Part shown: positions 43,862-62,272 of the stretch, one piece after another
How positions within the stretch are numbered: the stretch's first letter is position 1
How the letters are laid out: each line of letters begins with the position of its first letter
Assembly: GCF_015679185.1 (NCBI RefSeq)
Contig: NZ_CP064939.1
Span: forward strand, 3,472,001 to 3,536,000
DNA length: 64,000 bases
Direction: 5' to 3'
DNA from: Pedobacter endophyticus
GTDB taxonomy: Bacteria; Bacteroidota; Bacteroidia; Sphingobacteriales; Sphingobacteriaceae
Position numbers and translations under genes: made by a program
The notes under the pieces: generated by a model
The model's input: only the letters and a program-made list of their open reading frames with translations
What the model was told of the DNA's origin: nothing
Databases searched by the model: none

Positions 43862-44390
43862 TTTTTTGTTTTTTGATTACGATGTAAAGGTCGGCAACAG
43901 AGCCTTCAAAAAACTTAATCTAGTTTAAGAAATACCCGCGGAAACACGGAAATACACGGAAATCATTTTAGGAAACACAGAAATCAATTTATTTTCTGTC
44001 CCGTGGCTTTCCAGCCTCCGTGGCAATTGTTAGCACGATGCTGGGGCGTATTGAAAAGGATTGGCCACGGAAACACAGAAATACACGGAATTATTTTATG
44101 TTCCGTGGCTTCCCATCTTCCGTGGCAATTGTTTAGCACGGTGCTGGGGGCGTATTTAAAAGGATCAGCCACGGAAACACAGCAATACACGCCCGCCTGT
44201 CGGATGGGCAGGAAAATCATTTTATGTTCCTGTTCCGTGGCTTCCCCGCCTCCGTGGCAATGTCATTTAGTTAAGGATAAAACTAAAAAACATTGTCACC
44301 CTGAGCATTTCGACTACGCTCAATACAGGCTCAGTCGAAGGGCAGATGTTAATCGATTTACCTGCAAAAACGTCTCCGACGGAATTCTTC
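43862..44390. repeat. Tandem class 5 repeats (ccacggaaacacag unit)
   Basis: Three imperfect tandem copies of a unit of about 103 bases start near 43987, 44090 and 44218. Each pairs a word like ttccgtggcttcccatcttc with gccacggaaacacagaaata. A junction word, caatgtcatttagttaagg, ends the array at 44258-44276, and a class 1 module follows at 44297-44342. Long frames crossing this stretch encode repeat peptides only. Confidence 0.85.
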
Positions 44391-46519: not shown

Positions 46520-47326
46520 TTAATCATTAGTTTCCGACAAAATATGTTCAGGAATCAACTTTGATTTTAAATAAAGAACATTTGCTATCGCTGGCCCGGC
46601 CGAATAGCTAAGGATTGGGGTGAAACCATGTTCGTTGAGATAGCTGTCAAAATCATATCTTGTTGGAATATCCTCATATCGCATTTCCGTATTTGCTTCA
46701 AGATCAATTAGTAAAATTGACTTTAGAAACCTCTCTCCGCCTTTTAGAGCCTTTAATTCTGATCCTTGAATATTCATTCTCAGGTAGCTAAAATCTTTAT
46801 TCGTCCAGCTATTAGGTAACTCGTCAATAAGTTGATCCAAAGTTTTACAGGGTACAGACAGCTCGCCATAAGCTAAAGAATCCAAAATGTCAGAAAATTG
46901 ACCTTTAACTGGTTTTGTCAGAGAAGAAAGTGAACTTATTTCGGTACGGTATATTTTGGCTAAGCCCGATTCATCAGAGATGGCGCAATTTACTCCATGG
47001 GCTTTCATTCGAATTTCTTCTCCAAGAAAGCTCGATAAACTAATAAAAGTACTATTGTAATCGTCAATTCTCGTTTGCATTATTTTGAATTCTTCCGGCA
47101 AGGGTTCAACCATAACTACGTTCCGAAATCCAAGAGCAGCGTACATCGGTAATTCCTCTCCTATATGTCCTCCCAAATGTATAACCCCAGATCTGGAAAT
47201 ATTAAACTTCTCCAGCAATATTTGATATCCATATAGCAACGGGTCTAAATTGGCTTTTGCATTTCTTTTAGTAGCTAATTGCATCAGGTTTGCTGGGATA
47301 ATTTTATAAGAGTTTTCTGGTTTCAT
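46520..47326 (-). CDS. FkbM-family methyltransferase
   Basis: A 268-residue Rossmann methyltransferase. SAM motif I is VIHLGGHIGEELP (48-60), with VVMVEPLPEEF (70-80) carrying the acidic ribose-binding residue. IYRTEISSLSSL and the C-terminal LRMNIQGSELKALKGGERFL are the FkbM family signature. FkbM enzymes O-methylate sugars, acids or natural-product hydroxyls. As last gene of the minus-strand operon, 32 bases after the PaiB-like gene, it could cap a hydroxyl or carboxyl of the proposed product. Confidence 0.85.
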   Translation of the reverse strand: MKPENSYKIIPANLMQLATKRNAKANLDPLLYGYQILLEKFNISRSGVIHLGGHIGEELPMYAALGFRNVVMVEPLPEEFKIMQTRIDDYNSTFISLSSFLGEEIRMKAHGVNCAISDESGLAKIYRTEISSLSSLTKPVKGQFSDILDSLAYGELSVPCKTLDQLIDELPNSWTNKDFSYLRMNIQGSELKALKGGERFLKSILLIDLEANTEMRYEDIPTRYDFDSYLNEHGFTPILSYSAGPAIANVLYLKSKLIPEHILSETND

Positions 47327-47358
47327 AATTATTTAAATTTACAGATGTACTTAAGGAA

Positions 47359-47979
47359 CTAACTTTTCTTCTTCAAATTTGAAGTCATGTATTCCGCAGT
47401 GATTCTATCCTGACTGTTTTCACTTTTGCTCAGCGTGTTGATGATCCGTTTCTGTTCATCAATCGTCTTGTTCTGACTCATTTTTTGACTGGCCTGCAGC
47501 TCTGTTACCGTTATAGTAAACGGTACAATCCCATTTAACATCTTGTCTTTAAAGCTATCAGATAACGAATCCCATTGCGGTCTATAACCGGGCTCGTAAG
47601 TTAAAATCATGTCTTCCAGCGACCGAATTGCATCCGAATGATCTTGCACCACAATACAGTTTCCATAAGCATGCACAGCATAGTAATTCCATGTCGGAAC
47701 ACTTTCCGTCTTATCATAATGTTTCGGGGAAATATAAGCATGTGGCTCACTGAAAATAACTAGTACAGTTTGTCCCTCAATATTTTTCGCTTGTTGATTA
47801 GCCTTTGCAAAATGTGCATGCAATGTAACGACCTCATTTTCGTAAGTAATTGTAAATGGCAAATGTGTAGCCTGTGGAATCTGATCAATCGTTGAAACAA
47901 TTGTAGCAAAACTAAATCTTTTCATAAAAGATACGAGTTCCTCTTTATCGGATACCTGGTTTAATTTAGAGGTATACAT
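47359..47979 (-). CDS. PaiB-like FMN-binding protein
   Basis: A 206-residue split-barrel protein of the PaiB/FMN-binding family. PQATHLPFTI near 35-44 and HAHFAKANQQAKNI near 54-67 are conserved blocks, and WNYYAVHAYGNCIVVQD near 101-117 is the signature of PaiB. Family members are often called negative transcriptional regulators, but the fold is that of a flavin-binding oxidoreductase. In this operon a redox or tailoring role is as likely as regulation. It lies 12 bases after the beta-hydroxylase gene. Confidence 0.8.
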   Translation of the reverse strand: MYTSKLNQVSDKEELVSFMKRFSFATIVSTIDQIPQATHLPFTITYENEVVTLHAHFAKANQQAKNIEGQTVLVIFSEPHAYISPKHYDKTESVPTWNYYAVHAYGNCIVVQDHSDAIRSLEDMILTYEPGYRPQWDSLSDSFKDKMLNGIVPFTITVTELQASQKMSQNKTIDEQKRIINTLSKSENSQDRITAEYMTSNLKKKS

Positions 47980-47991
47980 TAGTTTAATAAT

Positions 47992-48849
47992 TTAGATAAG
48001 TTCAACATCAATACAAGTACCAGCAATATTTAGCGCCAAAGATTTAACAGTATTTTCACGAGAAAAAACGTAATCTACATACGCTTCCATAGGGAGCCCT
48101 ACCAGTGAAATCTTGTCTTCAGTAAGCGCCAGTGCTTTTAATAAAGGCTGGTCATTCACCAGCACACATAATTCTGCATCTATTAACCTGACACTTCCCT
48201 TTAAACTTTCGTTCAAGTCCAAAAAGCCCATCCCTGGTAAAGAAAAGCCTTTGGGAAGCAAAAAATTACAGTTGAAACGAGATAGTGTCTTTGTATCTAT
48301 TTCCACATGGTCATCTAATTTAGCAGCGGCAATCAGCGCCAAAGGAATAGAATCTAGAGGAAACAATTTCAGTAGATCCTTGGTTACTGTAACATCAATC
48401 ACCAGATGCACCCTGGTTTGCTGGCTCTTGTTTACACCATGATGAGGTTTAGAAAAATCACCAAACCATAATTCACCAGGTTGCCAGTTACAACGTAAAT
48501 CATCAAGAAAAAACTCAACATTCTGGTTAGTAAAAACCGGAATATGCAACCGAACTATCCGGTCTGATAGAAACGAATCGCTATGTTCTTTGATGATACC
48601 ATCTGGTTCAAGCATCATAAAACGAACAAGTCTTAGCCTGAGCTTCATTGCTTTTAATTCGTCCAATAACTCATCCGTTTGGGGTAAGCTTTCACGTTCT
48701 TCATTACCTAATGAGTATATTGGAATCGTATTCCAATTAAAATTTCCCTCGCCTGGATATCCCGCTGGAGCACTTTCAATGTTCTTAATACCATTGTAAA
48801 CGCGAGTGAGCATCTCGACCGAAAAAGTTTTATTTAATCTTAAATTCAT
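47992..48849 (-). CDS. Aspartyl/asparaginyl beta-hydroxylase family protein (Fe/2-oxoglutarate)
   Basis: A 285-residue protein whose first 160 residues form the Asp/Asn beta-hydroxylase jelly roll. H89 and D91 in KEHSDS form the HxD metal pair, and HHGVNKSQQTRVHLVIDV supplies the distal metal His (136 or 137) and the 2-oxoglutarate-binding Arg146. Related domains hydroxylate free or carrier-bound aspartate in siderophore pathways, making an iron-binding beta-hydroxyaspartate. Residues 165-285 are unrecognised. Its presence beside an exporter and a TonB receptor is one reason to suspect a metallophore. Confidence 0.85.
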   Translation of the reverse strand: MNLRLNKTFSVEMLTRVYNGIKNIESAPAGYPGEGNFNWNTIPIYSLGNEERESLPQTDELLDELKAMKLRLRLVRFMMLEPDGIIKEHSDSFLSDRIVRLHIPVFTNQNVEFFLDDLRCNWQPGELWFGDFSKPHHGVNKSQQTRVHLVIDVTVTKDLLKLFPLDSIPLALIAAAKLDDHVEIDTKTLSRFNCNFLLPKGFSLPGMGFLDLNESLKGSVRLIDAELCVLVNDQPLLKALALTEDKISLVGLPMEAYVDYVFSRENTVKSLALNIAGTCIDVELI

Positions 48850-48865
48850 AATAATAAGTTATATG

Positions 48866-50287
48866 CTATGTTTGTATAATTAAATTATCATTTATAAATG
48901 CCTCAACTACTTGTTCAAAATTTGGATTGACAGATAAACCGGCCTTCAATGCTACTTGGTGAGAAATTCTTTTATAAGCCCAAATCGTTTTCTGAATTGA
49001 GGCTTTCATTTCATTAATGCTGCTGTGCGGATAAATACCACTTGCAATCATCGCGGCGATATCAATTTGACTTGTAATTGGTTCGCCAGCATAAGTCTTG
49101 AGGTCATTTAGCCAATCGATCATTTCGCTTAGCCTTTTTTTGATATTGTTATCCAATATAAAAATGGCATAATAAAAGTCATTTCTAATCAATTTTACCA
49201 TCATTTTATAACAGTACTGCCAAAACTGATTATAGTTGTTATAGAACATGTCATTATACGCTTCACTTTTATAAAATTCTAAGTTAGCATTGAGCAGAGC
49301 AGGTAAGTTATGCTGTTTAGAGCAATTGATTTTACATTCAGAACATTGCGGTTTTTTAATACTTTTACTTATCAGGGTTTCCAAATCACTATTGATTTTA
49401 AAGCCTTTCGACAAAGCGATTGGATGGGATAATTGTTGGTAAACCAAAATTGACTGATCAATAGCATTAGTCATACGGGGGAAATCCTGATGAGGAAATA
49501 TACTATATAACTGTTGAATAATCGATTCATCACACCAATCATATATCTTCGCTCCTTTATAAAACACGTCCAGATCTTTATTATTTGGATCCAGCAATGT
49601 ATGCCAGTATACCATTTGAATCAGCGATTTTTTGATTTCATGATCATGGACATTTAATGCCTGAAAATAGTGTCCTCTTTCTAACTCAAGATTCATCTTG
49701 CAACAGGATTGCCAGAACTGGTTATAATTCCGCTCAAAAGTATTTTCATTAATCAGATTATTGCGTTCTTGATAAAGCTCATGTTTATATGCATCAAAAA
49801 TTCTTTCAATTAGACTTTTGATATTCACTTGATCGTAGAGTATTTGATATCCTCTTTTTAGATAATAATGGAAAGTATATAGTTTTTTATCCACGCTTTC
49901 CAATAACTTTTTTGGAATAACAGTTGATAAACCGACTTTCTTCAGCCATAAGAAATACTTTGCCGTCCGAAATTCACTAATATCTACCGTGATAATATCT
50001 AGACTAAACTCATTTTCGAGTACAATTCTGTTAAACAGAATTTGATCCATCAGCTCTTCCACAATTACCCTGGAAAGTATATTTCCGAAACTTTCTAAAA
50101 GCCATTGGTTTTGGTTTTTATCAAGATAACGAGCTCTATCAGTAGTGAAAATGAAAATATCCAAATCGGAGTTCTCATCAACTTTTTTTCTATTAGTCGA
50201 TCCAAAAGATACAATTGCCTTTATATCAGCATTATTCTCGGCCAGATCTATTGTTGCGGTTATGGCTTCGGTTAATCTGCTTTTCAT
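48866..50287 (-). CDS. AadK-like nucleotidyltransferase with duplicated C-terminal domain
   Basis: A 473-residue protein. Residues 20-105 form a nucleotidyltransferase fold: SFGSTNRKKVDENSDLDIFIF gives Gly29-Ser30 and the metal Asp41/Asp43, with a third acid near 97-102. This resembles aminoglycoside 6-adenylyltransferase. Residues 188-305 and 351-462 are two copies of the same helical domain (NYNQFWQSCCKM against NYNQFWQYCYKM), joined by a linker with CSECKINC (Cys315, 318, 322), a possible metal site. Typical AadK proteins are about 290 residues with one such domain. It may adenylate a pathway intermediate or give self-resistance. It starts 1 base after the receptor stop. Confidence 0.78.
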   Translation of the reverse strand: MKSRLTEAITATIDLAENNADIKAIVSFGSTNRKKVDENSDLDIFIFTTDRARYLDKNQNQWLLESFGNILSRVIVEELMDQILFNRIVLENEFSLDIITVDISEFRTAKYFLWLKKVGLSTVIPKKLLESVDKKLYTFHYYLKRGYQILYDQVNIKSLIERIFDAYKHELYQERNNLINENTFERNYNQFWQSCCKMNLELERGHYFQALNVHDHEIKKSLIQMVYWHTLLDPNNKDLDVFYKGAKIYDWCDESIIQQLYSIFPHQDFPRMTNAIDQSILVYQQLSHPIALSKGFKINSDLETLISKSIKKPQCSECKINCSKQHNLPALLNANLEFYKSEAYNDMFYNNYNQFWQYCYKMMVKLIRNDFYYAIFILDNNIKKRLSEMIDWLNDLKTYAGEPITSQIDIAAMIASGIYPHSSINEMKASIQKTIWAYKRISHQVALKAGLSVNPNFEQVVEAFINDNLIIQT

Positions 50288-50288
50288 G

Positions 50289-52712
50289 TTATTTAATTAC
50301 ACGTTCTTCTATCTCGTCAATAGCCTTGTTAATTTTTCGTTGCACTTCCAGTTTGATATTTCCGAAAGTATGGGTGTAAGTTAGCCTGACTATTCTTGAC
50401 TCATACCTATAATCGGTTAAAGCAGAAAAATTCGGATTCCCTTCATTTATTGATGTTACATGATAACGGTCTGAAAGAATATTGCTGATACTAAGTTGCA
50501 AACGATCATTTGAAGCCAACCATTTTTTATCAATTGACACATCAATTTTATTGGAAGGACTTGTCCTTGAAGCACCTGTGAGTCTGGCAGACTGGTAGGA
50601 ACCAAATACCTGAATATAGTATTGTTTTGACAGCATGAAATTCTGAGTGCTTTTAATTCTATAGTATGAATCTGATAAGCGTCCTCTGCTTAAAAGCTGA
50701 GTAGATTGTAATACACCCTGTAAGGAATTATCGATCTGCCACCAATCAGACAGCCTCACAGGTATATACAACAATGCTGAATATATTTTATTATTTTTAA
50801 GGTTGATTGGCATAAAAACCTGCCTGTTATCCTCAGAGAGAACAGGTTGAAATCTAAATATCGGATCAATTGTATTTATGAATTCAGTAGTGATCGAGTA
50901 TCTTTTAAAATTGTACGTCAACGTATATACATCACTTAATGAAGGCTTCAGGGATATATTTCCATTATAAAGGGTTGTAGGATCTAAAAACAAAATGAAC
51001 GGAGCAAGATCGTTATAAGTCGGCCTGCTGATTCTTTTGCCATACGATAACAACAAAGTGCTGTTAGCATTCAATGTCCTTGACAAAAACAAGGTCGGAA
51101 ATACCCTTCCCAAATTTCGGTTCACAACTTGTTTTTGTTCAATAATAGTTAAATGAGTATCCGAATTTTCATAACGCAATCCAACGTTCATAGTTGTGTT
51201 TTTATTAATATTCCATTTCGCTGAACCATAAAAGGCATGAATAATTTCATTCAAATGAGAGCGTCCACTCATCGCTGGGTCAGGCACGTATTCCTGACCG
51301 AGTAATCGTGCCACACTAACGAGATTATCCAATGAGGTAAGGGTAACTTTATATCCCGCTTCCAGTTTCATATTTTTATTGACCTGAACACCATAGTCGG
51401 TCCTTGCTGCCCAAATATTTACAGGCGTTCTCTTCTCAGAAGTAAAAACGTCCTTTAGAATCTCCTTATTTGCAGCATCAGCATAGGTGTTCTCATAGAA
51501 ATTGGGGTTTTTATTATAAAAATACAAATAGTCCAGATCGACATCCAGATTTGATTTTTTATCGATTTTATACGCTAAATTTACATTACCAGTAAACAAA
51601 GTTTTCTTGCTGTTTTCTGAATTAAAAATGCCTAAATTCACGATGGAATCAGGTCGATAATAGATATTCCCTCTACTCTTTACATGCTGATCCCATGTAT
51701 TCAGAAGCCCATAAATGCTACTTCCTAAAGTTGTTTTATCATTTAAACTGAAATCCAGACCAAGTCTTCCAGAATAGTTAGCACTTGTAGGAAATCTGCT
51801 TGAAACGATTGCGCTTGAATAATTACTTGCATTCGTGGTGATTGTTTTATAATTCTCAAAACGCCTATAGGAACGGTCCCGATTATAAGATAAGTCGCCA
51901 AAAAAATTGAGTGCTTTTTTTCTTGTATTCCAGTTTACTGCCAACCGCTGCTTGTCAAAATCACCAAAGCCTAATGCCGTAGTATATGCACCATTAGTAC
52001 CATCGGTAGTCCTTTTGTTCAGCAGAATATTGATCAGCCCACCTGCATTTCCAGCTTCATATTTTGCAGGTGGATTGGTAATCAACTCAATCTGCTTAAT
52101 GTTTCCAGCCTCCATTGTATTCAGCATCTGTATCAGTGAGCTTAAAGGGATATTGACAATTTTTCCTTCCAGCATAATTCCAACCTCTTCTTTTCCATTC
52201 AACGAAAGGGAAGAAGTTTGACGATCAACCTTTACCCCAGGTAGCTTTTCTAAAACCTCAAGGACACTTCCGGAAACTAATGTATTTTGATTACCAATAT
52301 TGACGGCTACGCGATCAATTTGTCGTTCATAAAGCGGCCTGTTTGCTTTTATACTTACCTCTTTCAAGTTGACTTCACTAGGTTCCAGGTGAATAGCTGG
52401 AATGATTGTGTTTAATTCTCTAATTGAAACAGGAACCCTGCTATTCTTGTAAGACCATGAAATTAAAGAAACAAAATACTCCCCCATATTATTAACCTGT
52501 AATTTATATTTACCATCCAGCGTAGTCATTGAAGAGGCGACTGTGGAGGAATCTGAGAGCCTGACAACGGAGATTTTTGTATAGGCTACCGGCAGATTTT
52601 TATTATCCAACACTTCACCAGTTATGCTATATTGACCCCGTATATTGCCAAACCAGCAAAGTAGGATAAATGAAATGATCAGAAAAGGTTTTGATAGAAT
52701 TGGGAGCAACAT
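50289..52712 (-). CDS. TonB-dependent outer-membrane receptor
   Basis: An 807-residue protein with a signal peptide (about 1-26) and a carboxypeptidase-like regulatory domain (28-108, ITGEVLDNKNLPVAYTKISV). A plug domain spans about 125-235 (LEKLPGVKVDRQTSSLSLNG, NPPAKYEAGNAGGLINI), followed by a beta-barrel of the OMP_b-brl_3 type. A short charged tail follows the last strand. This is not a SusC-type protein, lacks a SusD neighbour, and lies in the middle of a biosynthetic-type operon, which suits recovery of the operon's own product. The ligand is unknown. Confidence 0.88.
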   Translation of the reverse strand: MLLPILSKPFLIISFILLCWFGNIRGQYSITGEVLDNKNLPVAYTKISVVRLSDSSTVASSMTTLDGKYKLQVNNMGEYFVSLISWSYKNSRVPVSIRELNTIIPAIHLEPSEVNLKEVSIKANRPLYERQIDRVAVNIGNQNTLVSGSVLEVLEKLPGVKVDRQTSSLSLNGKEEVGIMLEGKIVNIPLSSLIQMLNTMEAGNIKQIELITNPPAKYEAGNAGGLINILLNKRTTDGTNGAYTTALGFGDFDKQRLAVNWNTRKKALNFFGDLSYNRDRSYRRFENYKTITTNASNYSSAIVSSRFPTSANYSGRLGLDFSLNDKTTLGSSIYGLLNTWDQHVKSRGNIYYRPDSIVNLGIFNSENSKKTLFTGNVNLAYKIDKKSNLDVDLDYLYFYNKNPNFYENTYADAANKEILKDVFTSEKRTPVNIWAARTDYGVQVNKNMKLEAGYKVTLTSLDNLVSVARLLGQEYVPDPAMSGRSHLNEIIHAFYGSAKWNINKNTTMNVGLRYENSDTHLTIIEQKQVVNRNLGRVFPTLFLSRTLNANSTLLLSYGKRISRPTYNDLAPFILFLDPTTLYNGNISLKPSLSDVYTLTYNFKRYSITTEFINTIDPIFRFQPVLSEDNRQVFMPINLKNNKIYSALLYIPVRLSDWWQIDNSLQGVLQSTQLLSRGRLSDSYYRIKSTQNFMLSKQYYIQVFGSYQSARLTGASRTSPSNKIDVSIDKKWLASNDRLQLSISNILSDRYHVTSINEGNPNFSALTDYRYESRIVRLTYTHTFGNIKLEVQRKINKAIDEIEERVIK

Positions 52713-52742
52713 AAAACTAAAATTAAAGCGTTTGCATTGTAT

Positions 52743-53801
52743 TTATTTTGTGGGTCTAAGAAACTTATTTAAAAGATGTGCAACAGGCTTTTTAAAGATT
52801 GCGGTTAGTACTGGATTTTTAAGAAGCACTGATATATATACATCTTCATGCCCGGCCTGAAACTTATCCTTCATCGATGCAGAGGAAGATCCCATATCAA
52901 TATGGAGACATCTTTGGTCAATGGCAAAACGAATCGATTCAAGCATAATCTGATACCAAAGATTGTGCGTTTTAGTAAACCTGTAATCGAATCCTGTGAA
53001 CAAACATTTCACTTCCCGACTATTGAAGAACATCAGACCGAATGCAGCAATCTTATTTTGTAGGTTATAAGTAATAACCTTAGTTTTGATTTTACTGTCA
53101 CACAGTGCAGAAAATACAGATCGGTTAACCGCTGCTGTTCTGTTTTCTTTAGCTTTCGCATTAGTTTTCTGATATAGAGGATAAATCAGATCGACTAATT
53201 CTGGAGTTAGTTCATAGAGCCCAACACTCACCGCAGAATCTTGCTTACATTTCATTACACTTCTAAAATAATTACGTTTTTTTGAGGGTAATGCATTGAA
53301 ATAATCTTCAAATGAGGCAAAAGAAGCTATATTCAGATAGCTCTTCACTAATGCATGATGATTTAAAAACCCCATGTCTTGGTTTTTGGCCATCAATGGT
53401 TGATCTGCTGTACCATAAAATTCACGTAAAATAACTACGTAAAATTTATACTGCTTCTTCAAGGTCTGCAGAATTTGCTTTACAAAGGTGCTATAAGAAA
53501 TATGATTTTCACTGTGCCAGAACGCTTTTCCATTTGTTTTAGGAGCTCCAAACATAGCTATGGCGATTGGAAACCCGGCAATTCTGATCTTCAAAATTGA
53601 TATTAAACAAATAAAGATAATCTCCCCTTTTACAGATCCAGTATAGAAAAATGTATTAATATCCTGCTTATTATACAAGTGAAGATAGTCGAGTGTTAAT
53701 GTAAAATTATTCGTTGCCACATGGAGATTCCAACTCTCTGTCTTAGGCTTATCCGCACAAAAAGCAGACAAGCTGTTATTCACAATATTCAACTCTGTCA
53801 T
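52743..53801 (-). CDS. FemAB/GNAT-like acyltransferase
   Basis: A 352-residue protein of the GNAT-fold group that includes FemAB and BioF2-like acyltransferases. SYLNIASFASFEDYFNALPSKKRNYFR near 165-190 and CLHIDMGSSSASMKDKFQAG near 302-321 are the family's two best blocks. FemAB-type enzymes use aminoacyl-tRNA to add residues to peptides and, in some natural products, to make amide bonds without NRPS. Its start overlaps the stop of the ABC transporter gene by 4 bases. Whether it uses tRNA or acyl-CoA cannot be told. Confidence 0.65.
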   Translation of the reverse strand: MTELNIVNNSLSAFCADKPKTESWNLHVATNNFTLTLDYLHLYNKQDINTFFYTGSVKGEIIFICLISILKIRIAGFPIAIAMFGAPKTNGKAFWHSENHISYSTFVKQILQTLKKQYKFYVVILREFYGTADQPLMAKNQDMGFLNHHALVKSYLNIASFASFEDYFNALPSKKRNYFRSVMKCKQDSAVSVGLYELTPELVDLIYPLYQKTNAKAKENRTAAVNRSVFSALCDSKIKTKVITYNLQNKIAAFGLMFFNSREVKCLFTGFDYRFTKTHNLWYQIMLESIRFAIDQRCLHIDMGSSSASMKDKFQAGHEDVYISVLLKNPVLTAIFKKPVAHLLNKFLRPTK

Positions 53802-55438
53802 AAAGCTATAAAATTGGGATTTTCATGAGTAACACGTATTAGCTTTCCTTCCTGCATTTTATATATGTAGTCAGTAAAGTAATAATATTTATCATCGTGG
53901 GTGATTGCGATTATGGTGAACCCTTTTCGTTTAAGCAAAGGAATGATCTCTTCATAAAATTTTTTCCTGAAATAAGGGTCCTGATCGGCTGCCCATTCAT
54001 CCAAAACTACAATAGGTTTATTCTCTAATAACACACAAACTAAAGCTAACCGTTTCCTTTGTCCCATTGATAAACCTCTGGTGGTAAATACATTATCTTG
54101 CCATCCCACCTTATCATTTAATTCAAAGATAGTCAGATACTCCTGTACCTGGATTGGGTCAACCTCAGGATTAAATACTTGATCAAAGAGATAATAATCA
54201 CTAAAAACGGCTCCGAACAACATTTTAAAAACCCCAATATTATCGAATCCAATCAACACATCATCGACATATACCTGACCAGTACCTGGCTTCAGTAGGC
54301 CTAATAAAAGCAACATAAAAGTGGTTTTTCCGCTTCCATTGCCTCCATAAATAAAATACACATTCCCCCGCCCGATCTCAAGGTCAATCGGTCCAATGCC
54401 AAAACCATTTTCCTGGCAAACGCTGGTTGGATAAGTGTACTTTAGATCCTGAACTTTGATCCTGGAAAAATTATCAAAAACCTCCTTTTTGGTAATTGGA
54501 TGATCATTGAATATGGTGCTAAATGTATCGCGTAAATCTACAACACGCTTGTATGCAATATTTGCCTGGTATAGCCCTGGTAAGAGTGCCATAGTCGTTT
54601 CAATTGCACTACGCAGAAACAGGAGTATAAAAACAAAATTAATTGATGTGGCCATTGGCAGACCGAACCTATTATTGAAAAACATCAAAACTGATAGTAT
54701 GAGCGTAAAGAAAAGAATCTGTCCCGTCAGCTGATTAAGAGAAATTCCGGTAAAAGCTTTAATGTTCAAGCCAATAGACCTTTCCGCAATTTGTTCTAAT
54801 TTAACTTGCCCCAGGATAGTCTTTTTATGCCGATCCAAAGATATTTCCTTGAACCCATTTATTAATGAATCCAATAGACTTACAAACTGCTCTTCTTCAT
54901 TTCTTGCGGCTTTTAGAAAAAACTGATTTCTCTTGAATGAAATACGATAAATAAAAGCTCCTGATACGATGACTATTAAGGTAAGAATGAACAACAATAT
55001 ACTGAGGTAGGCAAGATAGGCCATGCAAAGAATCATGGTCAAAAGGGAAGTAAGAAAATAGATGCAATGTTCGGCAGATTGTGTCAAAATCGAAACGTCA
55101 CTAATTAAGCATGCTGTAATTTTATGGGAATGCCTTTTAAAGTCGTTGAAGTTGGCATCAGACATTATTCTAACGACCTCTACTCTAAGCTTCCAAAACA
55201 AATGTTGTGAAAGCTTAATGGTTGAAAATGAGAAATAGATTCGCGTTAGGGCATATAAACCGATAAGTACAATCAAAAAAAGACAGTACTTTAATTCAAA
55301 GACTAAAGCTTTATCATTAACTTGTTTGTTGATCAACAGGTTAACCAAACTGATAAAGCCCAAAGTCAAGCTACTTGAGATTGTGCCCAACAAAAAAACT
55401 TTGATGAAATTTAGCTTTGATATAATAGGGTCTCTCAT
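53798..55438 (-). CDS. ABC exporter of the cyclic-peptide (SyrD/PvdE) type, fused TMD-NBD
   Basis: A 546-residue half-transporter. Five or six transmembrane helices cover 14-300. The nucleotide-binding domain has Walker A GGNGSGKT (365-372), signature LSMGQRKR (456-463) and Walker B VVLDEWAADQDPYFR (477-491). EWAADQDP followed by RKKFY is characteristic of the SyrD/PvdE cyclic peptide and siderophore exporters rather than of lipid flippases. It would move a product or precursor to the periplasm. Its position among the tailoring genes supports a secreted small molecule. Confidence 0.88.
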   Translation of the reverse strand: MRDPIISKLNFIKVFLLGTISSSLTLGFISLVNLLINKQVNDKALVFELKYCLFLIVLIGLYALTRIYFSFSTIKLSQHLFWKLRVEVVRIMSDANFNDFKRHSHKITACLISDVSILTQSAEHCIYFLTSLLTMILCMAYLAYLSILLFILTLIVIVSGAFIYRISFKRNQFFLKAARNEEEQFVSLLDSLINGFKEISLDRHKKTILGQVKLEQIAERSIGLNIKAFTGISLNQLTGQILFFTLILSVLMFFNNRFGLPMATSINFVFILLFLRSAIETTMALLPGLYQANIAYKRVVDLRDTFSTIFNDHPITKKEVFDNFSRIKVQDLKYTYPTSVCQENGFGIGPIDLEIGRGNVYFIYGGNGSGKTTFMLLLLGLLKPGTGQVYVDDVLIGFDNIGVFKMLFGAVFSDYYLFDQVFNPEVDPIQVQEYLTIFELNDKVGWQDNVFTTRGLSMGQRKRLALVCVLLENKPIVVLDEWAADQDPYFRKKFYEEIIPLLKRKGFTIIAITHDDKYYYFTDYIYKMQEGKLIRVTHENPNFIAL

Positions 55439-55480
55439 ATTTTACTTGATGTTGGTAGGCCGTTATTAATTGATGCTTAC

Positions 55481-56602
55481 CTATTTATTCAAATACATTA
55501 TCGTTTTATTACAGATGGAAATAAAAAATCTCCAAATTGATTTTTTAATGAGGCTGAGATGATCAAAATAGATCAAGTCATATTCTGCTCTTGCAATGCC
55601 TCCTCTATTTTTTTTAAACTCATCACCTCCAGAGCTATAGTTTAAATTTTTATGTTGTGTCTTTGCATCAAGAACCCTGATGGCAAAATTTAAGGTATAC
55701 AAATGAAAGTAATCAGCAGTATTCTGTTTGCACGCTCCCAGCGAACTGATGATGCTCCCATTATCTAAAAATGTTACAGTGAAGGCCACAACTTCCTGAT
55801 CTGAATTTTTAAATGCCTGTAACTTAAAAAACGGTAGTGCTCTAATCATTTCAAACCACTGTTGATTATAAGGCAAGCTATATTTAGAGTGTTTGCCGAA
55901 ATAAAGTTGATTATATAAATGCCTTATGGTAACCATATCAATACTTTTTAATTGATCTCCCTGTGTTAGCAGATAAGTAGTCTTTGCATTAGCCTTAATA
56001 GCTTTTTTAATATCGGACTTTTTTAAAAATTCTTCATCCATATCTACAGCATACACTATACGGTTCGTTAAGCAATTCGAATTAGGCAAAGACATGCCCT
56101 CAAAATGAAGATAATTGTTTACCCCTTTGAAAATTATCGCATATGATTTATAGGCACCTTGAAAGAATTCGCGGATATTCAATAACTCTTCATTGTTCAG
56201 ATAAACGGATGCCCCGGTAGGTATTATCCAGCAGTTAACATATACTGCTTTATTTATCCTTACCAGATTAAGCAGCGCATTCAGTATTATCCCCAGACAT
56301 TGTAAAGAGCCATATAGCAAACGGCTTTTAACCTTTTCCTTAACAGAATCTATCCCATGTTTAATATAATGAACACTCAGAGCTGATAAATAAGAGGATT
56401 TATCCTTTCCCTGGTTTATAACGATTGGAATAATTTTATCATTGACTACTAACAACTTGAATTCAGAATTAAATCCATCAATATAATATTGAGGCCCTTT
56501 TTCAAGCAGATTTATTAAATAGCCATCAGGCCCATCTTCTGAACGATAAACATGGGATAATGATTCATATTCAGTTACAGAAGAGCACAAATTAATGACC
56601 AT
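55481..56602 (-). CDS. GNAT/FemAB-like protein (Acetyltransf_6-like)
   Basis: A 373-residue protein. Its C-terminal half has the signature of CelD/FemAB-like GNAT proteins: FTVTFLDNGSIISSLGACKQ near 280-299 and NLNYSSGGDEFKKNRGG near 325-341, corresponding to the [DN]xxGG..fKxrfG motif. The N-terminal half (1-150) is less clear. It may acylate or aminoacylate the pathway intermediate. It begins 24 bases after the DUF3419 C-part and is followed 42 bases on by the exporter gene. Confidence 0.6.
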   Translation of the reverse strand: MVINLCSSVTEYESLSHVYRSEDGPDGYLINLLEKGPQYYIDGFNSEFKLLVVNDKIIPIVINQGKDKSSYLSALSVHYIKHGIDSVKEKVKSRLLYGSLQCLGIILNALLNLVRINKAVYVNCWIIPTGASVYLNNEELLNIREFFQGAYKSYAIIFKGVNNYLHFEGMSLPNSNCLTNRIVYAVDMDEEFLKKSDIKKAIKANAKTTYLLTQGDQLKSIDMVTIRHLYNQLYFGKHSKYSLPYNQQWFEMIRALPFFKLQAFKNSDQEVVAFTVTFLDNGSIISSLGACKQNTADYFHLYTLNFAIRVLDAKTQHKNLNYSSGGDEFKKNRGGIARAEYDLIYFDHLSLIKKSIWRFFISICNKTIMYLNK

Positions 56603-56626
56603 AAAATGTATGATTTATCATCGTGC

Positions 56627-57049
56627 TTATTTTAGTTTATAGATGTCAATGTTCCATAACTGAGTAGACTCTTGTAAAAACAGAGGCCGATATAAATTGC
56701 CAATTTCTTCAAAGCCATCAATTTGTGGCCGCGTTATTCTAAGATTACCTCTGACAACAACTTTGCCTGCGTTGGTCAAGTACGGTTTCAATAATTGCAG
56801 ATAGCTTGTCTCTAATTTACCGCCCATAAAAGATGGGACATCGGAGAGAGAAATAAAATCTATACTCTTCGGCGCTGTTTCCTGGATTACTTTTAATATA
56901 TCACCCTTAATATATTTGATCTCACAGTTCTCCAACCCTATTTTAACCTTATTGAACACTTCTGCATCTGCTTCAATCGGATTTGCACGGGTATTGATTA
57001 ATTTTCCAAAGAAACAAAGTTGTGCAAAAAAGCTTTTATTTACATCCAT
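56627..57049 (-). CDS. DUF3419 protein, C-terminal part (out of frame with N-part)
   Basis: A 140-residue frame starting MDVNKSFFAQLCFFGKL and containing SLSDVPSFMGGKLETSYLQLL and NAGKVVVRGNLRI, the distal half of the DUF3419/BtaA-like methyltransferase fold. It is in the +1 frame relative to the N-part and overlaps it by 14 bases. Read upstream without a start, the same frame gives NQIFHQMDVNKSFF, which would follow the N-part naturally. Removing one T from the run of five at 57069-57073 (complement) would join them. It is either one frameshifted gene or two coupled polypeptides. Confidence 0.75.
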   Translation of the reverse strand: MDVNKSFFAQLCFFGKLINTRANPIEADAEVFNKVKIGLENCEIKYIKGDILKVIQETAPKSIDFISLSDVPSFMGGKLETSYLQLLKPYLTNAGKVVVRGNLRITRPQIDGFEEIGNLYRPLFLQESTQLWNIDIYKLK

Positions 57050-57713
57050 CTGGTGGAATATCTGATTGAAAAATTCTTTTAAAATTTTTAAAGTGAGATC
57101 CCGGGATATTTTTCTTTGGAAAATCCCCTTTATAAAGCAGGCTATTTAATACAGAAGTATTTCCAAGTAAGCGCAAAACCAAATCCCATCTATGCCTTGG
57201 AAATCGATCAGTTAAATACGCTATCTGTTCTGGTAGGCTATTAGTTTCAAACAGCATTTGCCCCTTTCTACCCGTAATCAAACGATTCACCTTAGATAAT
57301 TTAATCAGAGTCTGTTCAAACTGACCCGTGTAAATAATCTCTGACCATTTAGCATTTACAAACACCTTTTCAAGATAAATCCGGGCCGGCTCAGAAAGGG
57401 GAAGCTGATCAAAGATTTTCCGTCGTTCGTCTGGAAGCAGAAATACAGGTGGGTATCCCAAAAAGGCTAGATACTGCTCAAAGTCCAAATATTTTATCGC
57501 CTCATACCGAAGTTCTGTCAGAAACAATTGTTCGTCAAGAATATCTACACAAGTTAATTTTTTGGGGCTGCGTGCAAGTAGAGGAAGCATTCTTCCTCCG
57601 CTGCCTGCTATACCCATAACATGGTTTACGTCTTCCTCTAGTATATTATATTCAACTCTAGAATCTTCGTCACCCAAACTGTAGTTTAAGTTCTTAAAGT
57701 ACTTTGGAGACAT
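57036..57713 (-). CDS. DUF3419 (BtaA-like 3-amino-3-carboxypropyl transferase), N-terminal part
   Basis: A 225-residue frame. NYSLGDEDSRVEYNIL near 10-25 and VMGIAGSGGRMLPLL (32-46, SAM-binding loop), then LTCVDILDEQLFLTELRYEAIK (53-74), match DUF3419, the family of BtaA. BtaA transfers the 3-amino-3-carboxypropyl group of SAM to diacylglycerol. The frame ends FQSDIPPDGCK in a different frame from its C-terminal half. It starts 6 bases after the diiron-enzyme gene stop. In this operon it could provide a homoserine-like building block or alkylate an acyl acceptor. Confidence 0.8.
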   Translation of the reverse strand: MSPKYFKNLNYSLGDEDSRVEYNILEEDVNHVMGIAGSGGRMLPLLARSPKKLTCVDILDEQLFLTELRYEAIKYLDFEQYLAFLGYPPVFLLPDERRKIFDQLPLSEPARIYLEKVFVNAKWSEIIYTGQFEQTLIKLSKVNRLITGRKGQMLFETNSLPEQIAYLTDRFPRHRWDLVLRLLGNTSVLNSLLYKGDFPKKNIPGSHFKNFKRIFQSDIPPDGCK

Positions 57714-57719
57714 AAATGG

Positions 57720-58460
57720 CTATTGGTTGATTAAGTGACTATATCTTGTTGAACTGTCAGACTGAAGTTTTAAATATTCTTCCACAATGTCATCCAGCAT
57801 CTCAGATTGAAGTTTCAAACTGGTTATCAATACGTCCTGTACTGATGACCAATCATCTTCAGTTTTGCAATACTTCTGAATCATATTTTCAATCTCTGCC
57901 GCATGATCTTCATCAATTGCAGCATGAGATACCAGAAAGGTCGTGTGCTTATTATTTAGTTCCAGCTTTTCAATAACAGATTGCATCAATGTTTGAATAT
58001 ATTGATAGGAGTCTTCTGCCCAAAAGCTATATCCCAATCTTCTAAGGGGGTTTCCAACTTTGGAGATTCTATATAAATAACCAATGAATGTTTCTGTAGA
58101 GGATAGTGGAAGTGGCATATTTGTTTCATCTTGATCTTGGGTTACACCTAGGTTTGAAAGGTCATGGAACGCCATCATTTCATGACCTGCTTCCTCTTCT
58201 GCGTGCTCATAGCAAAATTTCATATAATTGGAGGGCATTGATTCGAATCTTGTAGCTACCAATGCTTGATGCTTTGGATTATGCTGAACATAATGATATG
58301 TTTCAATTAAGTATATAGCATAAAATCGCCGATCATATTCTCCATTCAGAATAAAATTACACCACTTAGAGTTCTTGATAATTTTATTCCATTCTCTATC
58401 CCGCAGTTCAGACAAAGCAGTAAATTCTTTCGACCTTAATTCTGTTAATGATTTTTCCAT
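57720..58460 (-). CDS. Heme-oxygenase-like diiron enzyme (HDO superfamily)
   Basis: A 246-residue, all-helical protein of the iron-containing redox/TenA-like group. The six residues expected for a diiron HDO site are all present with family spacing: E53 and H60 (ETYHYVQH), E149 (FWAEDSYQ), H179, D183 and H186 (HAAIDEDH). HAEEEAGHE (86-94) is the second core helix. Related HDOs make N-nitroso, alkene, isonitrile-type or cleaved amino-acid products. It lies 7 bases after the LuxI-like gene and 6 before the DUF3419 gene, suggesting the three act on one substrate. Confidence 0.85.
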   Translation of the reverse strand: MEKSLTELRSKEFTALSELRDREWNKIIKNSKWCNFILNGEYDRRFYAIYLIETYHYVQHNPKHQALVATRFESMPSNYMKFCYEHAEEEAGHEMMAFHDLSNLGVTQDQDETNMPLPLSSTETFIGYLYRISKVGNPLRRLGYSFWAEDSYQYIQTLMQSVIEKLELNNKHTTFLVSHAAIDEDHAAEIENMIQKYCKTEDDWSSVQDVLITSLKLQSEMLDDIVEEYLKLQSDSSTRYSHLINQ

Positions 58461-58467
58461 AATTTAT

Positions 58468-59079
58468 TTATTTTAAAGTACTTGTTTTTAATACTTTCTT
58501 TTTTATTAATTTATTAAAGCTTGATATCTCACCGGTAACCAAATAATATTTATGATCTGCTCTACCCTTCAATAAAAAGCCCTCATCTATCACTGAACTT
58601 GCACCTATATTCTTATAGAGCCTTACTAAGCCTAACTTACAGACGGCGAAATAGACTGTATAAGGAGTGTTCTGAAGAACCCAATCTGAAAAATGATAGA
58701 ACATAAAAGCATGAAGATTTTGATTCCTATATCGATCTTCAATATAAACTCTATTAAGTTGCACGGCCTTATCTTTGTCAAGACTTAAGTTAATATCGTC
58801 TGGCAGATTCGATGAGATTTCCCATGCCTCATCATGATATGGCGTAATTCTGCAACTTGCTACAACTCGATTATCAACTGTAACATAAAATAGTATAGAA
58901 TAATCATCGAATTTATCCTTAGCAGGAAACTCTTTGGTTAAATCAAGAATATATGGAAAGTCTTTTTGACATATGTTCAACCTTGAATTATAAATAGCTA
59001 AATATTCTGATTGCGATTGGGCTCTCTTAAAAACAAAAGACGTTGTTTCGTTTTTCTTTAAATCTAGAAATATGGACAT
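58468..59079 (-). CDS. LuxI/FeeM-like acyltransferase (GNAT fold)
   Basis: A 203-residue GNAT-fold protein. DDYSILFYVTVDNRVVASCRITP (about 58-80) followed by VQLNRVYIEDRYRNQNLHAFM (106-126) resembles the N-acyl-homoserine-lactone and N-acyl-amino-acid synthase group, where a word like ExxR ends this strand; here Gln107 replaces the Glu and Arg110 is kept. Such enzymes join an acyl-ACP to SAM or to an amino acid. It is the first gene of the operon, 196 bases from the divergent XRE gene, with an inverted repeat between. An ordinary GNAT is the alternative. Confidence 0.65.
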   Translation of the reverse strand: MSIFLDLKKNETTSFVFKRAQSQSEYLAIYNSRLNICQKDFPYILDLTKEFPAKDKFDDYSILFYVTVDNRVVASCRITPYHDEAWEISSNLPDDINLSLDKDKAVQLNRVYIEDRYRNQNLHAFMFYHFSDWVLQNTPYTVYFAVCKLGLVRLYKNIGASSVIDEGFLLKGRADHKYYLVTGEISSFNKLIKKKVLKTSTLK

Positions 59080-59148: not shown

Positions 59149-59173
59149 AAATTATACACCAGATGTATAATTT
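59149..59173. promoter_or_regulatory. Perfect inverted repeat, candidate operator
   Basis: Arms AAATTATACA (59149-59158) and TGTATAATTT (59164-59173) are exact complements around CCAGA. It lies in the 196-base divergent gap between the biosynthetic operon and the small XRE regulator gene, 70 bases upstream of the operon's first start and 103 bases upstream of the XRE start. Size and symmetry fit a dimeric helix-turn-helix repressor. Confidence 0.6.
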
Positions 59174-59275: not shown

Positions 59276-59488
59276 ATGGATGAGGAAAAAATAAAATTAA
59301 TTTGCACGAAAATTAGATTAAAAAGAATTGAGATGGGTTACAGCCAAGAATACATGGCTTACCAATTGAGCATATCTCAAAATGTTTATTCGCAAAATGA
59401 AAGAAATATTAAAAATGTTCCTTTCTATAGGGTTTTACTGCTTGTTAATATCTTAGGGCTTGATATCTCAGAATTGATTAATGCTTAG
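59276..59488 (+). CDS. Small XRE-family helix-turn-helix regulator
   Basis: A 70-residue protein that is little more than a Cro/C1-type HTH: IRLKRIEMGYSQEYMAYQLSISQNVYSQNERN, with the recognition helix ISQNVYSQNERN near 37-48. There is no sensor domain, so it may need a ligand-binding partner or a modified peptide. It is divergent from the biosynthetic operon. The inverted repeat at 59149-59173 is the obvious candidate operator, implying control of the operon and probably of itself. A quorum-type feedback is an attractive idea because the first operon gene is LuxI-like, but no LuxR is present. Confidence 0.78.
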   Translation: MDEEKIKLICTKIRLKRIEMGYSQEYMAYQLSISQNVYSQNERNIKNVPFYRVLLLVNILGLDISELINA

Positions 59489-59536
59489 TCATCATTGCTA
59501 GGGTACTGAATCTACTATAATTCGGTCATTACCACG

Positions 59537-59851
59537 CTACCTAATCACCTTTATCCCAAACCGGGCGCCTATTTTCTGTTTATATGAGTGCTGGTATTGC
59601 CCCCAGTTTTGCTGGTGGTAGCTGAAATAACACCTGTTATTCGGCGAATTGAATACAATATAATAAGGAAACGACCTGTTCGAAGTTTCAGATCATCTAC
59701 ATATTCGAGGCCGACAAAAACACCGTCCTTTGGCAAATAGATGTTTCCATCGCTGATATCGATAATCAAATTGTTGATGCTACAGTCGTTCTTAAAAACG
59801 ATATTTCGAGTGAGGAGTTCAGCATCTGGGCATCCCTTTCTTTTATCACGC
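59537..59851 (-). pseudogene. C-terminal part of the disrupted carboxypeptidase-like surface protein gene
   Basis: Continuing from the N-terminal frame after 59852, the protein reads FRRDKRKGCPDAELLTRN, then IYLPKDGVFVGLEYVDD in the next frame. A second switch near 59670 gives PYYIVFNSPNNRCYFSYHQ and a natural end at the TAG at 59537-59539. So two single-base shifts (net +1, then -1) are needed to read it. No start codon of its own is convincing. It is either decayed or damaged by sequence errors in short homopolymers. Confidence 0.6.
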
Positions 59852-60433
59852 CTAAATAAATGGACGCAGGCGATTCGTTGTACAATTGGTTGCCAGCGTC
59901 AATTTGGAGCGGTTTACAACTCTAACATCGTTCACTAGGTTATACAACAATTTCGTAATTAACAATGTTGAGTCGCGGGTTTTGTTTGGAACAAACTGCG
60001 CTACATAATTAGCCCGTTCGCCACTGGGCCCAACGTAGTTTCCAAAACCTACAGGACCCGTTAACTCCTGATCTTTAAAGTACCCTAATCGTATTCTTTT
60101 TTTAGGTTTAGCACTAACATTAACGGACTGAAATTGAACGCTTACCGGTGATGACTGAATCGTAACATCGTCGTTGCCCTGCTCAATATCGTAATTTATC
60201 GTTTCGTAGCCAACACAGCTGATTATAAGGTCCGATAATGCAGTTTTTATGCTGAATTTACCTACGCTATCAGTGTAAATTACTCGCCGCTGCCCAGTCA
60301 CGTTTTTATACGTTACCGTAGCAAATGGAACGCCCAACGTGGTTTCGCTATTCACTACTTTCCCCTGTAGGTGTGTTTGACCAAAGCAAGCGAAACCAAT
60401 GGAAAAAACTTTAAAGAAAAAAATAGACCTCAT
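59852..60433 (-). CDS. Carboxypeptidase-like regulatory domain protein, N-terminal part (frameshifted gene)
   Basis: A 193-residue frame with a signal peptide (1-19). A carboxypeptidase-regulatory-like domain runs over 23-100 (LQGKVVNSETTLGVPFATVTY, then SVGKFSIKTALSDLIISCVGYE). The following part (about 105-190) matches the barrel-less companion proteins, about 300 residues long, of Bacteroidota. The frame ends NRLRPFI at a stop inside the natural gene, whose remainder lies at 59537-59851 in two other frames. It may be an inactive pseudogene. It is not part of the biosynthetic operon, being 570 bases beyond it behind the XRE gene. Confidence 0.6.
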   Translation of the reverse strand: MRSIFFFKVFSIGFACFGQTHLQGKVVNSETTLGVPFATVTYKNVTGQRRVIYTDSVGKFSIKTALSDLIISCVGYETINYDIEQGNDDVTIQSSPVSVQFQSVNVSAKPKKRIRLGYFKDQELTGPVGFGNYVGPSGERANYVAQFVPNKTRDSTLLITKLLYNLVNDVRVVNRSKLTLATNCTTNRLRPFI

Positions 60434-60574: not shown

Positions 60575-60618
60575 AACCCATAAAAAAAGCGACCATTTTG
60601 TCGCTTTTTTTATGGGTT
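60575..60618. terminator. Long perfect bidirectional terminator
   Basis: Arms AACCCATAAAAAAAGCGAC (60575-60593) and their exact complement (60600-60618) form a 19-bp stem with loop CATTTT. The inner part, AAAAAAAGCGAC/GTCGCTTTTTTT, is a classic terminator. It overlaps the last bases of the glnS stop codon, and on the other strand it would serve readthrough from the left. Confidence 0.85.
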
Positions 60619-62272
60619 AATTAGGTTTCTTAAAAGTATCCTTTAACGTTACCGTCCGGTTGAAAACCAATTTGTCAGACGTCGAATCTTTATCCAGGCA
60701 GAAATAGCCTTTGCGAATAAACTGGTAGCGTCCATCCAAATCAGCTTCTGCCAATGCCGGCTCAATGTAAGCATTCGATAAAACCTTTAAGCTTTCAGGA
60801 TTTAAGTATTCCTTAAAATCACCTTCCTCCGCATCTGGCGTTTCAGAGGTAAACAAACGATCGTACAACCGTATTTCAGCGGTTTTTGCATGTTGTGCAC
60901 TCACCCAATGGATGGTACCTTTTACGTTTATGCCGCTCGTATCACTTCCGCTTTTCGACTCAGGTATATAAGTACAATGTATTTCGGTTACGTTTCCGTT
61001 TTCGTCCTTTACGAAATCTTCACATTTAACAATGTAAGCGAATTTCAAACGAACCATTGCACCTGGGGCCAAACGGAACCATTTCTTTGCGGGCACTTCC
61101 ATAAAATCTTCCCGCTCAATCCAAAGCTCATTGCTAAAAGGAATCACACGCGTGCCGCCCCCATCTTCGGCTTCCGGATTGTTTTCGCCAATCAGTTCTT
61201 CCGTTCCCTTATCATAATTCGTAATAACCAATTTAATCGGATCTAAAACCGCCATTACACGGTTCGCTGTCTTGTTTAAATCCTCACGAATACAAAACTC
61301 CAATAAACTCAGCTCAATCAGGTTTTCGCGTTTAGCAATACCGATACGTTCACAAAACTCGCGAACGCTTTTCGGCGTAAATCCTCTTCTGCGTAAACCC
61401 GAAATTGTTGGCATCCGTGGGTCGTCCCAACCGCTTACCAGATTCTCGTTTACCAGTTGAAGCAATTTTCGCTTGCTCATTACCGTGCTCGTTAAATTTA
61501 AACGGGCAAACTCATATTGTTTCGACGGAAAGATCTCCAGTTTTTCGATAAACCAATCATACAGTTCACGGTGTGAAACATATTCAAGCGTACAAATCGA
61601 GTGCGTAATGTGCTCAATGCTATCGCTCTGACCGTGGGCAAAATCGTACATTGGGTAAATACACCATTTGTTGCCTGTACGGTGATGTTCAGCATGTTTA
61701 ATGCGATAAATAATCGGGTCACGCATCAGCATATTGGGGCTTGCCATGTCAATTTTGGCCCTTAAAATATAAGCGCCATCAGCAAACTCACCATTTTTCA
61801 TGCGGGTAAAAAGATCCAGATTTTCTTCCACGCTACGGTTTCTGAACGGACTATCCTGTCCCGGCTCCGTTGGCGTTCCCTTTAAGGCCGCAATCTCATC
61901 AGCCGAGCTTTCATCAACATAAGCCAGGCCTTTTTCTATCAATTTAACCGCAAAAGCGTACAACTCATCAAAATAATCAGATGCATACAGCTCATTCTTC
62001 CAGTTAAAGCCTAACCATTTTATATCCTCCTGCTGGCTGTTTACGTACTCCGTTTTTTCGGTTACCGGATTCGTATCGTCGAAACGCAAGTTCGTATAGC
62101 CGCCGTATTTTTGTGTCAGTCCGAAATTTAGGCATATCGCTTTGGCGTGGCCAATGTGTAAATAACCATTCGGTTCGGGCGGAAAACGCGTAACCAAAGT
62201 ATCGTACTTGCCACTATTTAAGTCGTTCTCAACAATTTCTTCAATAAAGTTCAATGACTTCTCTTCACTCAT
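60617..62272 (-). CDS. glnS: Glutaminyl-tRNA synthetase
   Basis: A 551-residue class I aminoacyl-tRNA synthetase. [13 protein letters not shown] near residues 32-44 is the HIGH motif, and VMSKRKL near 264-270 is KMSKS-type. The catalytic core is followed by the anticodon-binding beta-barrels typical of GlnRS (about 340-540), with [15 protein letters not shown]. It charges tRNA-Gln directly. It is monocistronic between a strong terminator and a repeat-rich gap, and is an ordinary housekeeping gene that marks the edge of the accessory region. Confidence 0.95.

Follow-up and report, generated by a model that had tools for sequence, protein, structure and literature searches.

The operon and the closest described systems

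The mangotoxin pathway (mboABCDE; PMC13185094) is a small-peptide pathway that is free of nonribosomal peptide synthetases (NRPSs) and includes a heme-oxygenase-like dimetal oxidase (HDO). An operon of Pedobacter endophyticus, which lies on the minus strand at bp 46520–59079 of a 64,000 bp stretch of contig NZ_CP064939.1 (positions 3,472,001–3,536,000; called the window here), is like it in these respects, but the mangotoxin pathway relies on ligases of the ATP-grasp type and on a flavin/Fe2S2 redox partner, and no LuxI-fold, DUF3419, FemX-type or AspH protein is described for it. Neither the adjacent LuxI-fold and HDO genes nor the trio that these form with the DUF3419 gene is described in the literature searched (most subscription papers were outside its reach), in agreement with a first-pass annotation, made from the sequence alone, that knew of no pathway with this set of genes.

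The best reading of the operon is that it is a new type of NRPS-free cluster with an acylated, oxidized, S-adenosylmethionine (SAM)-derived amino-acid product. That it is an NRPS-free operon, probably acquired horizontally, for the synthesis and export of a small acylated amino-acid compound derived in part from SAM is given a probability of about 0.6. The first-pass annotation had it make, export and re-import a small molecule derived from amino acids, with amide bonds made by acyltransferases. Conservation of the trio, the absence of condensation domains, the fold of a ligase and the exporter match all favor that proposal, but its re-import step is at best weakly supported (see below). The NRPS condensation domain (PF00668) has no match in the whole genome, while control genomes were positive, and the exporter belongs to a family (TIGR01194) whose cut-off it exceeds. 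The predicted fold of the ligase is like that of aminoacyl-tRNA transferases.

The operon comprises eleven genes in twelve open frames (Table 1, from the list of open reading frames (ORFs) of the window); the earlier count was ten in eleven, although its own list holds eleven genes. In transcription order the intergenic gaps are 7, 6, −14, 24, 42, −4, 30, 1, 16, 12 and 32 bp, so the single strand and the gaps of −4 to 42 bp first noted were confirmed, besides a 14 bp overlap between the two DUF3419 frames. The G+C content is 35.4%, versus 42.4% in bp 1–44000 (2 kb bins, standard deviation 1.4%) and 43.6% beyond bp 60617, and the local counts first cited for AT-richness (20 and 26 G/C in 60) are exact. 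Families were assigned with Pfam and NCBIfam profiles at curated cut-offs, and structures were predicted for two proteins (58468–59079 and 55481–56602). These profiles upheld the FkbM, PaiB, Asp beta-hydroxylase, nucleotidyltransferase, ABC exporter, DUF3419 and HDO assignments, as well as one FemAB-like protein and, as OMP_b-brl_3, the outer-membrane protein.

The HDO was found in none of 59 other genomes of the genus and in no other genome among 395 sampled across the phylum, where an alignment profile gave two weak matches. Because of this absence the operon is considered rare and was probably acquired horizontally; the low G+C content is listed as evidence for acquisition as well. A phage origin was rejected, as the HDO occurs in no phage record, and so was anti-phage defense, for which PADLOC gave no meaningful match. 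A cluster for a ribosomally synthesized and post-translationally modified peptide (RiPP) was also rejected, since the gaps are too small for a precursor gene and no RiPP enzyme was seen.

Table 1. Features of the operon, in transcription order, and of its upstream region (positions in the window; AF2 pLDDT, AlphaFold2 model confidence)
Feature	Position	Strand	Evidence
LuxI-fold acyltransferase, core 1, first operon gene	58468..59079	-	AF2 pLDDT 88.5; fold comparison
HDO, core 2	57720..58460	-	PF14518 Haem_oxygenas_2 E 3e-15, above cut-off
DUF3419 N-terminal frame, core 3, stop before family end	57036..57713	-	PF11899 E 1e-19, 71 bits vs cut-off 28.2; 49% to intact Deefgea protein
DUF3419 C-terminal frame, core 3 continued	56627..57049	-	PF11899 weak; 38% to Deefgea C-terminal part
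FemX-type aminoacyl-tRNA-dependent ligase candidate	55481..56602	-	AF2 pLDDT 80, double-GNAT fold; no Pfam match
ABC exporter, cyclic-peptide/PvdE type	53798..55438	-	TIGR01194 326.6 bits vs cut-off 286.2
FemAB-like protein, second candidate ligase	52743..53801	-	PF04339 E 2e-6, just above cut-off
Outer-membrane receptor, TonB-receptor-like	50289..52712	-	OMP_b-brl_3 E 2e-72; weak CarbopepD_reg_2
Nucleotidyltransferase, aminoglycoside-6-adenylyltransferase-like (ANT6-like)	48866..50287	-	PF04439 Adenyl_transf E 6e-24, two matched stretches
AspH-type 2-oxoglutarate oxygenase	47992..48849	-	PF05118 Asp_Arg_Hydrox E 2e-18
PaiB-type FMN-binding protein	47359..47979	-	PF04299 FMN_bind_2 E 3e-46
FkbM methyltransferase	46520..47326	-	PF05050 E 9e-14; TIGR01444 above cut-off
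XRE-type helix-turn-helix regulator, 70 aa, divergent	59276..59488	+	Pfam HTH_3 E 1e-6, above cut-off
Perfect palindrome TTATACA-N5-TGTATAA, candidate operator	59152..59170		0 mismatches; divergent intergenic region

The core proteins and their distribution

The core 1 protein has the LuxI fold but by the test applied is not an N-acyl homoserine lactone (AHL) synthase. Its predicted structure gives VIA Z scores of 17.9, 17.8 and 17.6 with the AHL synthases RpaI, BjaI and LasI, respectively, and 15.7 with FeeM; 174 residues align with RpaI at a root-mean-square deviation of 2.3, which places it within the AHL-synthase fold. The best whole-length alignments are all with AHL synthases, and plain GCN5-related N-acetyltransferases (GNATs) cover less of the protein, though one (5jph) ties with a Z of 17.7 over 142 residues. 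In sequence it matches FeeM and Acetyltransf_5 only, weakly and below cut-off, and none of the LuxI family models of Pfam or NCBIfam. The LuxI family motif is E-x-[ST]-R, and here core 1 reads QLNR, with the Arg invariant. Core 1 is thus like the AHL synthases (LuxI, BjaI and RpaI) and FeeM in fold and in two invariant arginines, but is set apart from the AHL synthases because no LuxI model matches it and because Gln replaces the Glu of the motif. The initial description as LuxI/FeeM-like is strong by predicted fold and weak by sequence.

The second core protein is a predicted dimetal oxidase. Its ligand set of three His and three carboxylates (E90xxH93, E149 and H179xxxD183xxH186) is invariant in 18 sequences and has the pattern described for the HDO superfamily, in which only about a dozen members have a known reaction and the substrates are mostly amino acids or fatty acids (PMC13108848). 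In the PDB it matches 3dde (E 2e-94) and MboA (E 7e-8), and the latter, an acetylenase (PMC13185094), is the only characterized PDB relative found with the HDO profile. Entry 3dde, whose title gives its function as unknown, is closely related to the window HDO subfamily; as a solved structure it could help to model substrates.

DUF3419, the third core family, is the family of BtaA. BtaA transfers the carboxypropyl group of SAM (PMC10491745), and by analogy the window protein is a predicted 3-amino-3-carboxypropyl transferase that would use SAM. It shares Pfam DUF3419 with the BtaA-type transferases of betaine-lipid synthesis, but it is of a distinct subfamily, lies in a natural-product-like context and is broken in this assembly; no BtaB-type methyltransferase is present in the operon, where FkbM is the sole methyltransferase (the rest of the genome was not searched for BtaB). 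The trio DUF3419 proteins are 39–57% identical to one another and 20–35% identical, mostly over part of their length, to other Bacteroidota DUF3419 proteins, which were taken as the lipid type. They thus form a separate subfamily, and assignment to the lipid type was rejected. In the literature searched, no natural-product pathway was found to include a DUF3419 enzyme.

The HDO turned up at 80 loci when 84,980 species genomes were scanned for it. The full trio is present in 27 of 85 HDO loci across phyla, the window included; two Planctomycete loci were left out (29 reduced to 27) because their DUF3419 proteins are nearer the lipid type, and a DUF3419 fusion considered there was rejected, as the long frame is a different one. 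The first-pass annotation had made its interpretation depend on joint conservation of these genes, and it is not refuted, because the trio is conserved in distant bacteria: Flavobacterium, Corallococcus, Pseudomonas, Zooshikella, Aestuariibacter, Trinickia and a Deefgea plasmid. The window order recurs in all of these, in Zooshikella with PaiB inserted, and the Deefgea plasmid, whose three proteins are about 23, 48 and 49% identical to those of the window, has an intact DUF3419 gene followed by one for a SAM decarboxylase. The HDO and LuxI-fold genes share a strand in 73 of the 84 loci outside the window and are at most 400 bases apart in 62, and a DUF3419 gene follows the HDO gene in Flavobacterium, Corallococcus, Sorangium, Pyxidicoccus, Zooshikella, Aestuariibacter, Trinickia, a Lysobacterales metagenome-assembled genome and fourteen Pseudomonas loci. 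In the HDO tree the window joins Dyadobacter (100/95) and, with two Flavobacteriaceae, forms a four-member group (100/100). Relatives of the AspH, PaiB, FemAB-like and FkbM genes lie near HDO–DUF3419 in Sorangium, four Corallococcus loci, Pyxidicoccus and the Lysobacterales genome, and Sorangium So ce26 has seven window families there. Of the fourteen Pseudomonas trio loci (L030–L041, L049 and L056), the two that were read (L032 and L033) have a dprA-like gene upstream and genes for a BioF-like synthase and a phenylacetate-CoA-ligase-like (PaaK-like) protein after the trio.

The SAM decarboxylase (SpeD) next to the Deefgea trio scores above its NCBIfam cut-off and has relatives in two more clusters. 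Because three relative clusters add this enzyme, an aminopropyl variant like that of microcin C (PMC10491745) is suggested for them; in outline they share with MccE/MccD the logic of a SAM decarboxylase plus a carboxypropyl/aminopropyl transferase, but the window has no SpeD.

The LuxI-fold/HDO pair also occurs in other settings. In Burkholderiales (L050–L078; for example, L062:10738–13239) it is followed in most loci by a membrane hybrid histidine kinase of ∼830 aa, whose best NCBIfam match in the two that were scanned is LuxN, in the kinase core and below cut-off; pair and kinase look like an undescribed signaling module. On conjugative plasmids of the Pseudomonas syringae group (L003:9532–18099 and L005) a single cluster contains genes for LuxR, anthranilate synthase, a PaaK-like ligase, the LuxI-fold protein, the HDO, a flavodoxin, an EamA exporter and a hydrolase. 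In Dyadobacter (L006:4790–14372) the pair, without DUF3419, lies with genes for a fused anthranilate-synthase-like enzyme, isochorismate synthase, an AMP ligase, a β-ketoacyl synthase (KAS) III-like protein and a phosphopantetheinyl transferase. The kinase, LuxR and Dyadobacter neighborhoods show that the pair serves several contexts, of which some are signaling-like.

Ligases, tailoring and transport proteins, and the upstream region

The model of the 55481–56602 protein is closest to aminoacyl-tRNA-dependent peptide synthases (VIA Z 17.7 with Sbb17, 17.5 with Sba18 and 16.4 with FemX). Its F329-K330 is invariant in six sequences; a conserved lysine is described for FemX and DhpH-C (PMC12945691), and equivalence to FemX K305 was judged by motif against that report, not by superposition. 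The protein is therefore a candidate aminoacyl-tRNA-dependent ligase, and its original FemAB/GNAT label is borne out by the FemX-type double-GNAT fold, though no Pfam family matches the window copy. It shares this fold and the conserved lysine with PacB, VlmA, DhpH/DhpK and Orf11 (PMC12945691) and with Sba18/Sbb17 (PDB 9wqw–9wqy), but these belong to clusters different from the window operon. Relatives of the second candidate ligase, the FemAB-like protein, are found near HDO–DUF3419 in six loci.

Within the family sampled, to which the window's genome belongs, the nearest homolog of the exporter is encoded beside two very large ORFs (1,441 and 1,546 aa) that by eye are NRPS-like, which is in keeping with a peptide-like cargo. 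The receptor matches only OMP_b-brl_3 and CarboxypepD_reg-type families in Pfam at E values up to 1, with neither the TonB_dep_Rec nor the Plug signature, and has no PDB relative by sequence. Because of this narrow match and because related clusters have no counterpart, re-import and metal uptake are unproven, and a siderophore function is weakly supported. The iron or zinc limitation named in the first-pass annotation is conjecture. The AspH-type protein matches L-proline cis-4-hydroxylase in the PDB (E 3e-10) and resembles OlsC/LpxO weakly; its H89xD91 and H136 are invariant in seven sequences.

The divergent XRE-type regulator gene and the palindrome upstream of the operon were missed at first. 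A regulator gene paired with a palindrome is a usual control arrangement, and the palindrome is a putative operator; at up to two mismatches, 0.29 chance matches are expected per window. Scans for sigma-70 and Bacteroidota −33/−7 promoters did no better than chance. Beyond the regulator, bp 59500–60433 hold an apparent remnant of a CarboxypepD_reg-type gene that ends early and lies between the operon and a tRNA-synthetase-like gene (60617–62272), at the end of which is a perfect, terminator-like 19 bp inverted repeat (60575–60618). On the other side, three imperfect 31 nt direct repeats, with a 45 nt pair (44001–44265), adjoin a band-7 gene.

Alternative explanations and the proposed pathway

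Several points weigh against a cluster that makes and exports an acylated, SAM-derived product. The BtaA-type chemistry is borrowed from a distant subfamily; no LuxI-fold gene was detected next to the HDO gene in Sorangium or Pyxidicoccus; related clusters have no counterparts of the exporter, the receptor or the nucleotidyltransferase; and the sole DUF3419 copy in the genome is split across two frames in an A/T-rich stretch, while relatives' copies are intact. Because the only such gene changes frame, the pathway may be inactive or broken, or the sequence wrong, and it is doubtful whether this strain has an active pathway. The change is +1, so −1 recoding was rejected, and no evidence for recoding was seen. 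Decay of the entire cluster, which would no longer function in this strain and could formerly have served any of the purposes considered here, nevertheless seems somewhat unlikely, as the ten remaining genes have long open frames and a single frame change could be a sequencing error.

A signaling product is possible because the LuxI-fold/HDO pair elsewhere adjoins hybrid sensor kinases; the pair would make a diffusible autoinducer that is further modified in the trio clusters. The AHL synthases are the closest fold relatives of core 1, and both the hybrid kinases of most Burkholderiales loci and the nearby LuxR gene of the Pseudomonas plasmids fit such a role, but the kinase- and LuxR-linked pairs are of a different HDO clade, the window operon has no sensor, and a larger product is suggested by its genes for the FemX-type ligase, AspH and the exporter, so that this appears unlikely. 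A metallophore would account for an exporter and a receptor in one operon: 3-amino-3-carboxypropyl transfer, which occurs in known metallophores (PMC10491745), would give an aminocarboxylate chelator (compare nicotianamine and staphylopine) that the ABC protein exports and the receptor takes up when loaded. This is quite improbable, given the receptor's match to OMP_b-brl_3 alone, the lack of both transport proteins in related clusters, and the absence from the operon of Pfam or NCBIfam matches to opine dehydrogenase, NRPS-independent siderophore synthetase or NRPS families. Membership of the BtaA family and the faint OlsC/LpxO likeness of AspH could instead point to a betaine- or ornithine-like membrane lipid made by an N-acyltransferase, a 3-amino-3-carboxypropyl transferase and a lipid hydroxylase, and in Flavobacterium the trio is followed by genes for a GNAT-like protein, a PlsC-like acyltransferase and a fatty-acid desaturase. 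Such a lipid is similarly improbable in view of the separate DUF3419 subfamily, the want of a BtaB-type methyltransferase in the operon and the nearer relation of AspH to proline cis-4-hydroxylase, and a lipid sits poorly with the FemX-type ligase and the peptide-type exporter.

For the favored new type of NRPS-free cluster, the proposed steps are given here from the most to the least trusted. Amide bonds would be formed from aminoacyl-tRNA by the FemX-type ligase, and probably also by the FemAB-like one, as PacB, DhpH and Sba18/Sbb17 do, and the LuxI-fold enzyme would acylate an amine with acyl-CoA or acyl-acyl carrier protein. Transfer of a SAM-derived chain would fall to the DUF3419 protein as a member of the BtaA family, a step possibly broken in this strain. 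The HDO may oxidize an amino-acid-like unit by desaturation, N-oxygenation or cyclization; AspH would hydroxylate, FkbM methylate and PaiB handle flavin redox; and the ABC protein would export the product, with the operon under the control of the XRE protein. A broader proposal, which at present seems rather unlikely, is that the pair, with or without DUF3419, is the hallmark of a class of SAM-linked metabolites that is widespread but undescribed. In Burkholderiales these would be signals that hybrid membrane kinases sense, and in the window and in myxobacteria they would be elaborated to peptide-like products by tRNA-dependent steps. The conserved core, in which an HDO stands together with a LuxI-fold acyltransferase and a SAM-based group transferase, points to chemistry that is still unexplored but is open to testing, since cultured Pseudomonas, Corallococcus and Flavobacterium carry relatives.

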